Positions 37,633 through 42,906 of a stretch of DNA of 64,000 nt are shown here, piece after piece; the stretch's first letter is position 1, and every line of letters starts with the position of its first letter. Both the position numbers and the translations under genes were made by a program. The DNA is from Ornithinimicrobium pekingense DSM 21552 (GTDB lineage Bacteria > Actinomycetota > Actinomycetes > Actinomycetales > Dermatophilaceae), in the NCBI RefSeq assembly GCF_000421185.1, contig NZ_ATWJ01000014.1:186001-250000 (forward strand), read 5' to 3'. The notes beneath the pieces are model-generated. The model worked only from the letters and a program-made list of their open reading frames with translations. It had not been told where the DNA came from and did no database searches.

Positions 37633-39330
37633 TCATGCGGAGAGCCACAGCACGTCATACCCCTGGAGGGTGACGGCACCCGCGCCGCTGGTGCCGTCGA
37701 GGAGGTCGCGCCACGCACCCTCCCAGGGGACGGTGACCGCCTCGCCCGTCACGTTGGTCAGGCTGACCACGCTCGAGCCGTCGTCGGCGGTCCGCCGCAC
37801 GGCGAAGACCCGTGGGTCCAGCTCGAGCACCTCCTGGTCGCACCAGGGTGAGAACGCCGCGACCTCCCGGCGTCGACGCAGCAGGCCGGTGATGCCGTCG
37901 AGCACCTGACGCCGACGCCCTTGCGTGGCGAGGTCGAAGTCGAGCTCGTCGGCGTCGAGCACCGCGCGGTTGATGCGCCGGGCGATGCCGCTCTCGGCGA
38001 CGGCGGCGAGGTCGGAGCGGCTGCCGAGGAGGGAGTGGACGTAGATCGCGGGCACGCCGACGACCGACAGCAGGATGTTGTGCGCGGCGACGGCCTTGCG
38101 GGCGAAGGTCGCGTCGTCCGCGGCCTCCTGCGGGGTGCACAGCGCGTCGAGGTAGCTGATGTTGAGCTCGTAGACGGTGGTGCTGCCGTCGGGCTGGTCG
38201 GCGAGCGAGACCTGCCCGCCGTGGGCGAGCACCCGGTCGGCGAGCGCCTGCCGCTCCGGCTCGGTCAGCAGCCCCTGGGTGGGCCGCAGCCCGATGCCGT
38301 CGTGGCTGGCCAGGAAGTTGAACCAGGTCGCGCTGTCGCTGACCGGCCCGACCGTCGCCGCCCATCGCGACAAGGCCCCGGTGTCGCCGGCGACGAAGGA
38401 GTGCAGGACCAGCGGCGGCAGGGCGAACTGGTAGACCATGTGCGCCTCGTCGGTGCCGTCGCCGAAGTAGGAGATGTTGTCGGCGTGCGGCACGTTGGTC
38501 TCGGTCAGCAGCCGCGCGCCGGGGCGGGCGTGGTCGACCAGCGCGCGCCACAGCTGGACGATCGCGTGGGTCGCGGGCAGGTGGATGCAGGAGGTGCCGC
38601 TCTCCTTGACCAGGTAGCCGATGGCGTCCAGGCGCACCGTGGTCGCACCGTGCGCGAGATAGCTGAGCAGCACCTCGGTCAGCTCGACCAGCACGGCCGG
38701 CGTCCCGACGTTGACGTCGACCTGGTCGGCGCCGAACGTCGTCCACGCCGAGCGCACGGTGCCGTCGGGCGCCTCGTAGTCGTGGAAGAGCGGGGTCGTG
38801 CGCGGGCGCACGACCTGGGAGACGTCGCGGTGGTCGCCCTGCTCGATGTAGAACCCGCGGCGGCCCGGCAGCCCCGCGAGCCAGCCGACGAACCACGGGG
38901 AGCTCGCGGAGGTGTGGTTGGCGACGAAGTCGAAGGCGAGGTCGTGGTGTCGCCGCAGCGCGTGGACGTCGTCCCACTCCCCGACCGCAGGGTTGACCGA
39001 GCGGTGGTCGACCACGCCGAAGCCGTCGTCGGAGGTCCACGGGAAGAACGGCAGCAGGTGGATGTCGGTGACCAGGTCACCCACGTGCTCCTCGACGACC
39101 TCGCCCAGCGCCCGCAGGGGCACCTCGCCCGCCCGCTGCACCGAGTCGGCGTAGGTGATGAGGAAGGCGCTGCGCTGGTCGAAGCGGCGCACCGGCGGCG
39201 CGGCCCGCAGCGCGAAGCGGTAGCGCTCGGCCAGCCCGACCAGCTCGGGCGCCAGGTTGTTGGGCACCCACCGGTAGACGACCGCGAGCAGCTCCTCCAC
39301 CCGACGCTGCAGGTCCTCCAGCTCGCTCAC
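37633..39330 (-). CDS. GH13_18 sugar phosphorylase, glucosylglycerate phosphorylase (YcjM)-like
   Basis: A 565-residue GH13 subfamily 18 phosphorylase, which splits alpha-glucosides with phosphate to give glucose-1-phosphate. Motifs: ITYADSVQR, DIHLLPFFPWTSDDGFGV, nucleophile in TVRLDAIGYLVKESGTSCIH, acid/base Glu in LLTETNVPHADNISYFG, and FLASHDGIGLRPT. The TETNVPH and LALPPLVL-type segments match the YcjM/glucosylglycerate phosphorylase branch better than sucrose phosphorylase (which has a V-x-VHSYY-like segment there); this is from memory of the families. GTG 39330 overlaps the GH36 stop (GTGA). Last gene of the operon. Confidence 0.82.
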   Translation of the reverse strand: MSELEDLQRRVEELLAVVYRWVPNNLAPELVGLAERYRFALRAAPPVRRFDQRSAFLITYADSVQRAGEVPLRALGEVVEEHVGDLVTDIHLLPFFPWTSDDGFGVVDHRSVNPAVGEWDDVHALRRHHDLAFDFVANHTSASSPWFVGWLAGLPGRRGFYIEQGDHRDVSQVVRPRTTPLFHDYEAPDGTVRSAWTTFGADQVDVNVGTPAVLVELTEVLLSYLAHGATTVRLDAIGYLVKESGTSCIHLPATHAIVQLWRALVDHARPGARLLTETNVPHADNISYFGDGTDEAHMVYQFALPPLVLHSFVAGDTGALSRWAATVGPVSDSATWFNFLASHDGIGLRPTQGLLTEPERQALADRVLAHGGQVSLADQPDGSTTVYELNISYLDALCTPQEAADDATFARKAVAAHNILLSVVGVPAIYVHSLLGSRSDLAAVAESGIARRINRAVLDADELDFDLATQGRRRQVLDGITGLLRRRREVAAFSPWCDQEVLELDPRVFAVRRTADDGSSVVSLTNVTGEAVTVPWEGAWRDLLDGTSGAGAVTLQGYDVLWLSA

Positions 39331-40694
39331 CCCAGGTCTCCTCTCGCTCCGCGGGCGCGCACCTCGCCGGCCGCGACACCCAGCCCCTCCGCCACCGTCG
39401 CCTCGTCGAACCGCGGCGCAGGCGGGTCCGACAGCACGCCGCGGACGAGGCTGCGCCCGCGCTCGTCGAGCTCGTCCCACCGGTCCGACCAGGACCGCAT
39501 ACCCCCGAAGCGCCGGCTCTCGGCCGCCCACCGCTCCCGCAGCGCGAAGCCGGGCCGCGCCACGACGACGTCGGGGTCGTCGGTCCACAGCCGACCGTGC
39601 GTCCAGGCCCGCGCGGCCGTCGACATCAGCCCCCGCAGCCCGCGCGACCCGTCGGCGGCACCCTCGTGGAAGGTGTCGGGCGAGACCCGCATCGCGTCGA
39701 CCAGCCCGACGCTCGGCAGCAACGGCGCGCCGCACGCGAGGAGGGTGCAGTCCTGCCCCATCACCTCCCGGACCAGGGACAGGCCAGCGCGGTATGCGGT
39801 GACCGCCTCGGCGCGGTCGCGCCCGGGCCCGGGGAGCGCGCCGGCGTAGAGGAAGTCGAGCTTGAGGTAGTCGACGCCGAGCCGGCGCAGGGCGGTCAGG
39901 TGGCCGCGCAGCAGGTCCTGGACGCCGGGGTGGAGCAGGTCGAGGCCGACGAGGTCCTGGCCCCAGTTGCGCCCGGCGTCGCCGGTCAGCCACCCGGGGT
40001 GGTCGCGGGCGAGCTCGGTGTCGCGGCCGACGAGGAAGGGCGCCAGCCAGATGCCCGCCCGCAGCCCGGCCTGCCGCACCTCGGCGACGACGCGCTCGAG
40101 GTCGCCGAAGCCGGGGCGGGTCCGCAGGCCGTCGCCCAGGCCCGTGCTCCAGCCGTCGTCGACCTGCACGATGTCGGTGGGCAGGTCGTGCTCGCGGATG
40201 TCGGTGAGCGCGGCGCGGACGTCGTCGGCCGTGACCTGCTCGAAGTAGCGGTACCACGAGCACCACACCCGCGGCTGCTGACCGGTGCGGGCGCCGAGCC
40301 GTTCGCCGATCGTCGTGCCGGCGGCGACGAGGGCCGCAGCTGCGGTCGGGGCGGTCCACCGCTCCACCTGCCCCGACGCCTCGACGGCCAGGTGCCAGCC
40401 GCGCTCCTGCACGGTGATGGTGGCCGGGTCGCGCAGGTCGGCGCTGAGGTATGCCGTGACCGGCCCCCCGTCGCCGGGGTCGACGACCGCCAGCCCCTCC
40501 GCCTGGTATGCCGTGGGGTGCAGGTCCGTTCCGGGCCGGTAGCGCATCACGTGCTGCCAGGGCTCCTCGGGCAGCAGCGGTGGGACGCCCGCGGGGTAGC
40601 AGGTGGCGGGGCTCCAGCTCTGCCACCCCTCGGCGTAGACGCGCCAGCGGCCGGCGGTGGCGGGCAGCTCGTCGACGGTCTGCAGGTCGGTCAC
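39327..40694 (-). CDS. GH36-type alpha-galactosidase-like glycosidase
   Basis: A 455-residue GH36-like enzyme, cytosolic. The catalytic nucleophile is Asp280 in YLKLDFLYAG and the acid/base Asp340 in MRVSPDT; WCSWYRYF and IVQVDDGWSTGLGD line the pocket. It is shorter than classic GH36 enzymes (~700), since most of the N-terminal sandwich is missing. It probably removes an alpha-linked galactosyl or similar residue. Translation starts at GTG 40694, which overlaps the stop of the last of three mini-ORFs in the upstream tandem repeat, so its initiation may depend on them. Confidence 0.82.
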   Translation of the reverse strand: MTDLQTVDELPATAGRWRVYAEGWQSWSPATCYPAGVPPLLPEEPWQHVMRYRPGTDLHPTAYQAEGLAVVDPGDGGPVTAYLSADLRDPATITVQERGWHLAVEASGQVERWTAPTAAAALVAAGTTIGERLGARTGQQPRVWCSWYRYFEQVTADDVRAALTDIREHDLPTDIVQVDDGWSTGLGDGLRTRPGFGDLERVVAEVRQAGLRAGIWLAPFLVGRDTELARDHPGWLTGDAGRNWGQDLVGLDLLHPGVQDLLRGHLTALRRLGVDYLKLDFLYAGALPGPGRDRAEAVTAYRAGLSLVREVMGQDCTLLACGAPLLPSVGLVDAMRVSPDTFHEGAADGSRGLRGLMSTAARAWTHGRLWTDDPDVVVARPGFALRERWAAESRRFGGMRSWSDRWDELDERGRSLVRGVLSDPPAPRFDEATVAEGLGVAAGEVRARGARGDLG

Positions 40695-40790
40695 ACCACG
40701 TCCTCGGTGGGGCTGGGGGCGGTCATACGGCGTCCTCGGTGGGGCTGGGGGCGGTCATACGGCGTCCTCGGTGGGGCGGGGGGCGGTCAT
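40691..40790 (-). other. Chain of three 11-codon mini-ORFs linking the oxidoreductase and GH36 genes
   Basis: Minus-strand frames 40790-40755, 40758-40723 and 40726-40691 each read ATG, then TAPRPTEDAV, TAPSPTEDAV and TAPSPTEDVV, then TGA. Each stop overlaps the next ATG in ATGA. The first ATG overlaps the oxidoreductase stop, and the last stop overlaps the GH36 GTG. The peptides echo the oxidoreductase C-terminus (PTEDAG). They have no evident function as peptides; a relay for ribosome re-initiation is the likely effect. Confidence 0.6.
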
Positions 40791-40804
40791 CCGGCGTCCT
40801 CGGT
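40699..40804. repeat. 32-bp tandem repeat at a gene junction (three copies plus a partial)
   Basis: Full copies lie at 40699-40730, 40731-40762 and 40763-40794, each starting CGTCCTCGGTGGGG and ending GGTCATACGG or GGTCATCCGG; a 10-base partial copy follows. The unit holds the end of one reading frame and the start of the next. Because 32 is not a multiple of three, each copy shifts frame. Copies 1 and 2 are almost identical, so the duplication looks recent. A G-rich simple repeat (GAGAGGGGTG units, 40808-40845) adjoins it and encodes the PLPT repeats of the oxidoreductase tail. Confidence 0.85.
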
Positions 40805-41860
40805 CGGGAGAGGGGTGGTGGGGAGAGGGGTGGGGAGAGGGGTGACGGGGGTGCCGCCCTGCGCGGCGGAGTCGCGGGCGGCGAACATCAGGCGGAGGGA
40901 GGCGATGGCGGAGGTCAGGGAGTTCTCGGGCTCGCGGTCCTCCGCGATGGCGGTGAGCAGCTCGCCCATGGCGCCGGCGAAGCCGTCGACGAACCACGCA
41001 CCGGTCAGCGGCAGCTGCTCCTCGGCGGTCCCGTCGTCGAGGCTGAGGCGGTCGGAGTCGAGCAGGACGCTCCCCCTCAGCGTCCCCGTGGTGCCGTGCA
41101 CCCAGAACGCGCAGCCCGGCGTCGTCGCGACGCCGCTGCCGGGGATGCGGATCGTCGCGGTCGCGCCGGAGCGGGCCTGCATCACGATCGTCGCCGACCA
41201 CGGGTTGAGCGAGTCCGCCGGCTGGCCCGGGAGGCGGGAGTCGAGGGCGATCACGTTGACCACCTCGCCCTGACCCTCGGCCGACCCGTCGAGCAGCCAC
41301 ATCCTCGTGATGTCGACCCAGTGCAGCAGGTAGTCGGTGAGCAGCATGTGCTCGACCCGGTCGAAGTGGGTGCCGGTCAGCGGAGGCAGAGCCTTGTCGT
41401 GCACGTGCGTCACGCCGACCACCTCCCCGACGCGACCCTCGCGCAGCAGCAGGCTGGCCGACCGCCAGGGCGGGGCCCAGCGCGCGTTGTGGTTGACCGC
41501 GACACGCAGCCCACGGCGGGAGGCGTCGCGGACCAGCTCCTCGAGCACCGGCAGCTCGCCCGCGTCGAGCGTCACCGGCTTCTGGGCCAGCACGTGCTTG
41601 CCCGCCTCCAGGCAGCGGCGGACCAGCGCCACCCGGCCCTCCGGCCCGGTCGCGATGTCGACCACCCGCACTTCGGGGTCCGACAGCAGGTCGCCCACGT
41701 CGTCGTAGACCCGCCCGACGAAGGGGAACCGTTCCAGCACGTCGGCGGTCCGCTCCGGCCGCCCGCACACGCCGACGACACCGATGCCGTGCTGCTCGTA
41801 GGCCGGCAGGTGCGCCGACGCGGCGATGCCGCCGTAGCCCAGGACGGCCACGCCGCTCAT
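40787..41860 (-). CDS. Gfo/Idh/MocA-family oxidoreductase
   Basis: A 357-residue NAD(P)-dependent sugar oxidoreductase. The N-terminal Rossmann loop is VLGYGGIAASAHLPAY and the conserved lysine motif AQKPVTL corresponds to the family EKP; the C-terminal domain includes HWVDITRMWLLDG. In the E. coli ycj operon a protein of this family (YcjS) oxidises C3 of glucosides. The tail is a Pro/Leu/Thr repeat (TPLPTPLPTTPLPTEDAG), unusual for the family and made by a G-rich microsatellite. Its ATG overlaps the MDR stop (ATGA). Confidence 0.85.
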   Translation of the reverse strand: MSGVAVLGYGGIAASAHLPAYEQHGIGVVGVCGRPERTADVLERFPFVGRVYDDVGDLLSDPEVRVVDIATGPEGRVALVRRCLEAGKHVLAQKPVTLDAGELPVLEELVRDASRRGLRVAVNHNARWAPPWRSASLLLREGRVGEVVGVTHVHDKALPPLTGTHFDRVEHMLLTDYLLHWVDITRMWLLDGSAEGQGEVVNVIALDSRLPGQPADSLNPWSATIVMQARSGATATIRIPGSGVATTPGCAFWVHGTTGTLRGSVLLDSDRLSLDDGTAEEQLPLTGAWFVDGFAGAMGELLTAIAEDREPENSLTSAIASLRLMFAARDSAAQGGTPVTPLPTPLPTTPLPTEDAG

Positions 41861-42906
41861 GCCGGTGCCCCCGGGAAGCGGAGCAGCACCTGCAGCACCT
41901 CAGGGTCGCCCTCGTCGAGCCGCCGGAACGCCTCCCCCACCTCCGAGGCGTCGACCACGTCGGTGATGAGCGGGTCCACGTCGACCCGGCCGGCCAGCAC
42001 CAGCTCCATGAAGACCTGCACCAGCCGCGCCTGGTCCCAGCTGGTCGACAGCCCGACGGGCACGCCGCCGATCTGGCTGGCGACGATCCGCACCCGGTTG
42101 TGGTGGAACTCCTCACCGAGCCGCAGCCCCTCGGCCCCGCCCTGGTAGAAGCCCGCGGCCGCGACCACCCCGTCGACCCGCACCGCGCGGATCGCCTCGT
42201 GCAGCGCCGCGACGGCCCCGCTCAGCTCGACCGCGCCGTCCACCCCGCCGTCGGACCACCGCCGCAGCAGCGGGCCCACGCCGCCCTCCGCGCGCGGGTC
42301 CAGGGTGAGCTCGGCGCCATACCCCTGCGCGACCTCGAGGCGGCGCGGCGCCATGTCGACCGCGGCCACCCTCGCCCCGGCGAGCACGCCGAGCCGCGTC
42401 GCGAGCAGCCCGATGACGCCCTGGCCGAAGACCGCGACGCGCGAGCCGAGGCGGGTGTCGGCGGCGAGCACGCCGTTGAGCGCGATGGCGCCGACCCGGG
42501 CGAAGCAGCCGGTCCGCGGGTCGACGTCCTGGCCCAGGGTCCGGCCGACGAGCGTGCGCGCGGGCCGCACGGCCTCGCTGCGGTGCCCCCAGATGCCGTG
42601 GACGAGGTCGCCCACGCCCAGCCCCACCACGCCCGGGCCGACCTCGACCACCTCCCCCATCTCCGAGTAGCCCCACCCGGCCACCGGGTAGGCGAAGCTC
42701 GGCGGGCCGTCGCGGAAGATCCGCTCCTCGGCGTCCCAGGTGCGGGTGAGGTAGGGGTTGGAGCCGCGGTAGGCGGTCAGCTCGGTGCCGGCGGAGATGC
42801 CGGAGTACCACGTGCGCACGCGGACGTCACCGGGGCCGACCTCCTCGACCGGGCACTCCTGCAGCTCCACGACGCGCGGTGCGGTGAACGTGACCACGGA
42901 GGGCAC
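41857..42906 (-). CDS. Zinc-type medium-chain dehydrogenase, YcjQ-like
   Basis: A 349-residue MDR protein. It starts MPSVVTFTAPRVVELQE, then GISAGTELTAYRGSNPY, the cofactor loop VFGQGVIGLLATRLGV, and the C-terminal LGEEFHHNRVRIVASQ. These segments resemble E. coli YcjQ, a guloside 3-dehydrogenase. The usual catalytic Cys-His-Glu zinc site and the four-Cys structural zinc lobe of alcohol dehydrogenases are not visible, so metal use is uncertain. It lies between the permeases and the Gfo/Idh gene in one operon. Confidence 0.75.
   Translation of the reverse strand: MPSVVTFTAPRVVELQECPVEEVGPGDVRVRTWYSGISAGTELTAYRGSNPYLTRTWDAEERIFRDGPPSFAYPVAGWGYSEMGEVVEVGPGVVGLGVGDLVHGIWGHRSEAVRPARTLVGRTLGQDVDPRTGCFARVGAIALNGVLAADTRLGSRVAVFGQGVIGLLATRLGVLAGARVAAVDMAPRRLEVAQGYGAELTLDPRAEGGVGPLLRRWSDGGVDGAVELSGAVAALHEAIRAVRVDGVVAAAGFYQGGAEGLRLGEEFHHNRVRIVASQIGGVPVGLSTSWDQARLVQVFMELVLAGRVDVDPLITDVVDASEVGEAFRRLDEGDPEVLQVLLRFPGAPA

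Follow-up and report, generated by a model that had tools for sequence, protein, structure and literature searches.

How would ribosomes pass from an oxidoreductase gene to a GH36-type gene in Ornithinimicrobium pekingense DSM 21552, where the two genes are joined by a row of short reading frames each ending in the start of the next, and how did this row come to lie in an operon? The junction is part of a stretch of 64,000 nucleotides (assembly GCF_000421185.1, contig NZ_ATWJ01000014.1, positions 186,001 to 250,000), here called the window; coordinates given without a further label are positions in the window.

Geometry of the junction and its start sites

The junction was reported by TRF as a tandem repeat (40688-40808, period 32, 3.8 copies, 93% matches, score 200). 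Read on the minus strand, 40684-40811 consists of four 32-bp units (Table 1), each of which contains GAGG, 7 nt and then NTGA. Translation from the first three starts gives the three mini-ORFs of Table 1, each of which closes in the following NTGA; the chain begins with the TGA that is the oxidoreductase stop (40787-40789) and ends with the GTG that is the GH36 start (40694). The stop-start relay of three 11-codon ORFs between these two points, as described in the initial annotation, was therefore recovered. Its details were revised in two respects: four repeat units were found instead of three, the first of them lying within the oxidoreductase C-terminus, where it codes for PTEDAG, and the GH36 start codon, previously taken as ATG, is read as GTG.

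Table 1. Operon genes, repeat units and mini-ORFs at the oxidoreductase/GH36 junction. All features are on the minus strand, so that the first base of each has the higher coordinate.
Feature	Position	Strand	Remarks
Zinc-type dehydrogenase (ADH_zinc_N)	41857-42906	-	Stop overlaps oxidoreductase start as ATGA
GFO/IDH/MocA oxidoreductase (GFO_IDH_MocA)	40787-41860	-	C-terminus reads through C-rich leader and unit 1
C/T-rich, G-poor leader before array	40812-40848 (edges approximate)	-	In frame as oxidoreductase end
Repeat unit 1	40780-40811	-	GAGG 40798-40801; ATGA 40787-40790
Repeat unit 2	40748-40779	-	GAGG 40766-40769; ATGA 40755-40758
Repeat unit 3	40716-40747	-	GAGG 40734-40737; ATGA 40723-40726
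Repeat unit 4	40684-40715	-	GAGG 40702-40705; GTGA 40691-40694 (GH36 start)
Mini-ORF 1, MTAPRPTEDAV	40755-40790	-	11 codons
Mini-ORF 2, MTAPSPTEDAV	40723-40758	-	11 codons
Mini-ORF 3, MTAPSPTEDVV	40691-40726	-	11 codons
GH36-type gene (Melibiase)	39327-40694	-	GTG start; stop overlaps next start as GTGA
GH13 gene (Alpha-amylase), sucrose phosphorylase-like	37633-39330	-	TIGR03852 below its cut-off

A profile of the unit scored 31.2 to 35.4 bits on the four window units, which had themselves been in its training set, compared with a maximum of 6.7 bits on the reversed sequence, and the window array matched a second array of the same genome with an E value of 4.9e-26. By these two measures the array is far beyond chance. 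The ATGA and GAGG common to its four units count as about one event, the units being tandem copies.

Genes were called with a simple codon-score script instead of a standard gene finder. The NTGA overlap is also present at the dehydrogenase/oxidoreductase and GH36/GH13 junctions of the operon and was found in 66 of 350 co-directional gene pairs on two contigs of the same genome. Shine-Dalgarno-like 4-mers precede 213 of 536 called genes (40%), compared with 12% of random sites; GAGG itself precedes 118 of the 536 and is a plausible Shine-Dalgarno sequence in this host. Because the GH36 gene has its own GAGG in unit 4, the four re-initiations that had been proposed as obligatory are not required: with GAGG 7 nt before the start in every unit, the last included, GH36 could be initiated de novo. 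As regards an independent promoter or ribosome-binding site for GH36, the initial annotation had named both as evidence that would speak against it; a candidate binding site (GAGG) is present in unit 4, and a consensus scan of 40400-41200 for sigma-70-type sites returned no promoter, so that this candidate was rejected. A hairpin terminator was also considered and rejected, since no terminator-like site was found in 40400-41200 and the repeat family has no consistent fold.

The RNA of the junction is weakly folded. Compared with 200 shuffles in each case, a 141-nt sense RNA was less stably folded than all of them (z +3.3), the 128-nt array by itself less than 199 (z +3.0) and the 81 nt around the GH36 start less than all (z +2.0). 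The sense z of the window array is the highest of 50 arrays of the genome, which is weak evidence, being one extreme picked from 50. Over the family the sense z has a mean of -0.23 (s.d. 1.63; coding control -0.15), and short partial palindromes were seen by eye in some cores.

Distribution of the 32-bp class in the genome and the genus

The unit had been described as a tandem duplication of a gene junction; it is not private to this junction and belongs to a genome-wide 32-bp family. A search of the genome with the window array gave 37 matches, including itself, on nine contigs, among 40 of 102 candidates scored, and the core pattern with at most one mismatch occurs at 564 unit sites, compared with 120 for a reversed control. 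In the stretches of the genome that were examined, 50 arrays of at least two units were collected (159 units in total, mostly in 32-bp steps), a set drawn from two whole contigs and from stretches picked from match lists, some of them partial, and not a full census. A profile scan, with a profile trained on units from the very stretches scanned, gave 45 arrays in 30 stretches, and the set of 50 overlaps these in part. Arrays in the genome comprise two to eight units. The sense consensus of the type found here (type A) is approximately CCSACCGRSGACGYSGNRYGCACGCCC plus a variable linker. Linkers are similar within many arrays and unlike between arrays (by eye), a pattern as expected from local tandem growth. 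Taking type A together with a second type found in congeners (type B), 72 of 81 arrays lie outside called genes: the repeats are interspersed, intergenic and tandem.

Array sites are uneven across contigs, with one array listed on C7 (702 kb) and thirteen found on C14 (259 kb). Among the 50 arrays, 14 facing pairs (plus then minus strand; 0 to ~1.2 kb apart) were counted by eye, with examples on contigs C14 and C11 and at loci L010, L011, L012, L016, L025, L027 and L036; back-to-back pairs within 1.5 kb were looked for by eye in the same set and none was seen. A cassette or island between facing arrays was considered and rejected, as seven such segments hold different ordinary-looking proteins (by eye). 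A tandem array at C11:204035-204133 has a G-rich 34-bp unit and is unlike the 32-bp class.

The arrays are found mainly behind stop codons. In 34 of the 50, the array start falls between -40 and +80 nt relative to a stop on the same strand; on the 3' side, 13 show an opposite-strand stop within this range, and these may overlap the 34. The median distance from stop to array is 13 nt among the 38 arrays with a same-strand stop as 5' neighbour, and between co-directional genes 22 arrays lie in sense and eight in antisense. Type-B arrays are post-stop in sense in 17 of 31 cases compared with eight in the other orientation, and in a sample from five congeners (G003, G007, G009, G021 and G026) the corresponding counts are 16 of 27 compared with four that have an opposite-strand 3' stop; the type-B stretches (G028) and the loci of the five-congener sample were chosen for holding arrays. 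Directly behind 15 array-bearing stops, the composition over the first 15 nt is C 0.60 and G 0.17, compared with C 0.41 and G 0.38 behind 178 other convergent stops. A leader like that of the window array precedes several other arrays (by eye).

An element acting at transcript ends would account for some of these features. C-rich post-stop arrays might function there, for example in Rho loading, and at the window junction the relay would then protect the operon from premature termination by keeping the RNA occupied by ribosomes. The sense post-stop position in all three samples, the C-richness behind array-bearing stops and the weak folding of the window array are consistent with such an element. 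We nevertheless consider it most improbable, as an apparent hairpin already precedes some arrays (by eye), several arrays lie between close co-directional genes and the sense folding of the family is ordinary in comparison with the coding control.

One array of the genome lies behind a peptidase gene. A similar downstream small gene is kept at eight of 23 congener loci for this peptidase and no array was found within 400 nt of the peptidase stop at any of the 23, so that the array in this genome looks like a gain in its own lineage.

Type A was found in its own species only, among 58 genomes. The core pattern occurs 77 times in the own genome (G000) and not in the other 57; the tandem pattern occurs 85 times in the own genome, not at all in 30 congeners and five other family members, and as one chance-like match in 22 genomes of the order. 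Congener arrays have the same 32-bp period and a similar head, and the remainder differs. Type B (sense consensus approximately CCCACCGAGCGYCGCGAATGGTTGCCC) has 12 to 335 sites with at most one mismatch in each of nine congeners, where the control gave 0 or 1 per genome; two further congeners have one site each; none was found in the remaining genomes among the 31 of the genus, or in any of nine named relatives. The shared-head motif occurs in tandem at 32 bp as at least four pairs in 17 of these 31 genomes and as 0 or 1 pair in the other 14, among them G013, the closest congener by the peptidase query; in each of 155 other family genomes 0 to 2 pairs were found, with controls giving 0 or 1 in these and at most 2 overall. 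The 32-bp class is spread through the genus yet not universal in it, and within the family it was seen in the genus only. In G009 and G014, TRF on 80-kb chunks revealed additional intergenic arrays (L193-L200) that differ in sequence and retain the 32-bp period; they are AT-richer, with the pattern CGAAACC...GCGGGG. No description of the class was found in the literature searched, most subscription papers being outside the reach of that search.

Step length, reading frame and relays in other arrays

A step of 33 bp keeps an array in its reading frame. Among the in-gene arrays of types A and B, eight of nine step mainly by 33 (one being a 33/32 tie), compared with two of 72 arrays outside genes (Fisher p 1.2e-8); in the five-congener sample one of two in-gene arrays does so. 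Exceptions to the in-gene step of 33 are L228, with a single step of 32, and G010 87651, with one step of 32. In-gene arrays for which a step of 33 was mostly observed are those at L014 4579-4643, L025 2064-2384, G010 (chunk 59848 and 148047), L215 15900 and L219 9816. A period-32 array at C11:252716-252811 (L021/L004), scored as outside genes, continues into a transporter-like open frame (named by eye) at the 5' end of the latter, whose product it may extend at the N-terminus.

The window array has a period of 32 although at least its first unit lies in a gene frame. As 32 is 2 modulo 3, an NTGA in one unit lies in frame with that in the next, and a relay follows automatically, barring any other in-frame stop. 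From these step lengths, translated arrays seem to be held to a frame rule, which the relay meets by a different route. The relay need not have been specially designed: the period suffices, and other arrays form relays that do not link genes. Such NTGA chains in 32-nt steps were found in sense in L094, in antisense in three arrays, in arrays of G029 (L223/L225) and G030, in L227 and in L234 3024-3147 (G009); gene calls and reading gave no linkage of genes by any of them. In a search of 186 family genomes for the relay pattern, which covered the register of the window only, matches were limited to the window array and those of G029 and G030.

These accidental relays speak for a further reading, which we regard as possible but unlikely: the array could be a passive passenger of neutral expansion, the GH36 gene being started de novo at GAGG-N7-GTG and the mini-ORFs mattering little. 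The period of 32 is a family trait in any case, and unit 4 supplies the GAGG that such a start would need. Several properties that set the window array apart from the others are not expected of a passenger. TGA stands at unit positions 18-20 in four of four window units, compared with two of 155 others, and among the 50 arrays only that of the window has it there in every unit. GAGG is present in every unit in just three of the 50 arrays, a relay joins two genes at the window array only, and this array is the least folded of the 50 by sense z.

Origin of the junction and its probable function

An NTGA overlap at this junction is common in relatives. Eleven loci of other actinobacterial genera have an oxidoreductase gene beside a GH36 gene. 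In eight of them the oxidoreductase stop forms part of an NTGA from which the GH36 frame can be entered (L048, L049, L050, L052, L053, L056 and L060 by script; L051 by eye), and in three it does not (L054, L057 and L061). The NTGA codon is a candidate GH36 start in these cases, the weakest being L049, L050 and L053, where it lies 44 to 68 nt before the match. At L055 the GH36 gene overlaps a dehydrogenase gene as NTGA, and at L058 and L059 neither an oxidoreductase nor a dehydrogenase gene lies upstream of GH36. TRF found no 32-bp array at the oxidoreductase/GH36 junctions of the relatives. Among congeners, a near full-length GH36 match (43% identity) is confined to G027, the other matches in the genus being short, so that the array-free state of the junction is known from other genera. 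On the simplest history, the array and its C-rich leader would have arisen where a single NTGA already coupled the two genes; insertion of the array and its local growth at the junction are indistinguishable from one case.

In the initial annotation no described case of this exact layout was known. This does not hold for its kind: mycobacterial MIRUs are described as dispersed repeats whose small ORFs overlap the adjoining ORFs (PMC4473831; PMC12548453). In the former source, MIRUs are set apart by two features: they lack dyad symmetry, and their small ORFs, read in the direction of the contiguous ORFs, overlap these. The latter, where Supply et al. (1997) is cited for MIRUs as ref. 77, describes them as apparently mobile and inserting at start codons, with a -4 nt coupling between the MIRU ORF and the gene that likely limits the effect of the MIRU on the gene. 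The window array resembles them, as so described, in that its small ORFs overlap contiguous ORFs of the same direction and the units of its class are dispersed and intergenic. It differs in having a unit of 32 bp and in that one of 50 arrays in the genome forms a gene-linked relay and the other 49 do not, whereas overlap with neighbours belongs to the MIRU description. The likeness is one of layout; membership of the mycobacterial family is not claimed, the searches for the class having covered its own family, the order and nine named records. The overlap is also identical to that of NTGA (-4 nt) termination-reinitiation coupling, with the difference that four overlaps in series and three dummy ORFs take the place of one overlap.

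The explanation that we consider somewhat favoured is that a coupled junction has accommodated a MIRU-like array, in which each unit would restore a stop, a start and an SD-like GAGG, and copy number need not matter. The array is then one member of an interspersed 32-bp tandem repeat that has spread among genomes of the genus, where it mostly lies in sense behind stops and outside genes. Two properties would have made it tolerable at the present junction: the presence in each unit of GAGG, a start and the stop overlapping it, and a unit length that is 2 modulo 3. A ribosome that finishes the oxidoreductase would meet the overlapping start, make 11 codons and repeat this until it reaches GH36, while fresh 30S subunits would be able to start at any unit; units could then be gained or lost without a shift of either flanking frame. 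The relay would work as in the MIRU coupling model. We infer that the array inserted at, or grew on, an NTGA junction, and that the mini-ORFs are probably translated, coupling being kept and copy number having little effect. The gene-linked relay is a single case from one strain of the species.

In the initial annotation copy number was instead seen as a rheostat, each added unit bringing a re-initiation cost and slippage tuning the output of GH36 and the phosphorylase. Copy number can change, as the arrays of two to eight units in the genome indicate, and the geometry of the relay is right for this. However, the GAGG in each unit means that fresh initiation can refill the chain, and coupling is reported to be most efficient at a spacing of -4 to +3 nt (PMC12548453). 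The anatomy of the array fits insensitivity to copy number at least as well as a rheostat, and the latter appears very unlikely.

Bacterial VNTR or minisatellite families are tandem and intergenic, with a copy number that differs between sites, and the class described here is like them in these respects. It is unlike them in three respects: the 32-bp step is conserved between species although much of the repeat sequence is not, the sense post-stop position is preferred, and arrays inside genes mostly step by 33. A more speculative and rather doubtful idea is that retention of the step, which is about three helical turns, and of the sense position, with much of the sequence replaced between species, points to so far undescribed machinery by which steps of 32 bp are produced or read. 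In coding sequence the repeat would then survive mainly as a 33-bp array or as a junction relay, with translation setting the repeat length, and the relay in the window would also shield the array from its normal 3'-end role.

The relay is real and unusual; its parts are explained by the 32-bp repeat class of the genus, by a period from which relays follow automatically and by NTGA coupling of the junction in most of the relatives examined. The less expected result is the 32-bp repeat class itself, not the relay. Its four successive, near-identical overlaps share one GAGG arrangement, so that the junction offers a clean natural test of serial termination-reinitiation, and it illustrates a way in which the copy number of a repeat within an operon could change with no reading frame broken. 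It also exposes a large, species-varying class of 32-bp post-stop arrays and raises the questions of how these arrays spread and why their step is 32.
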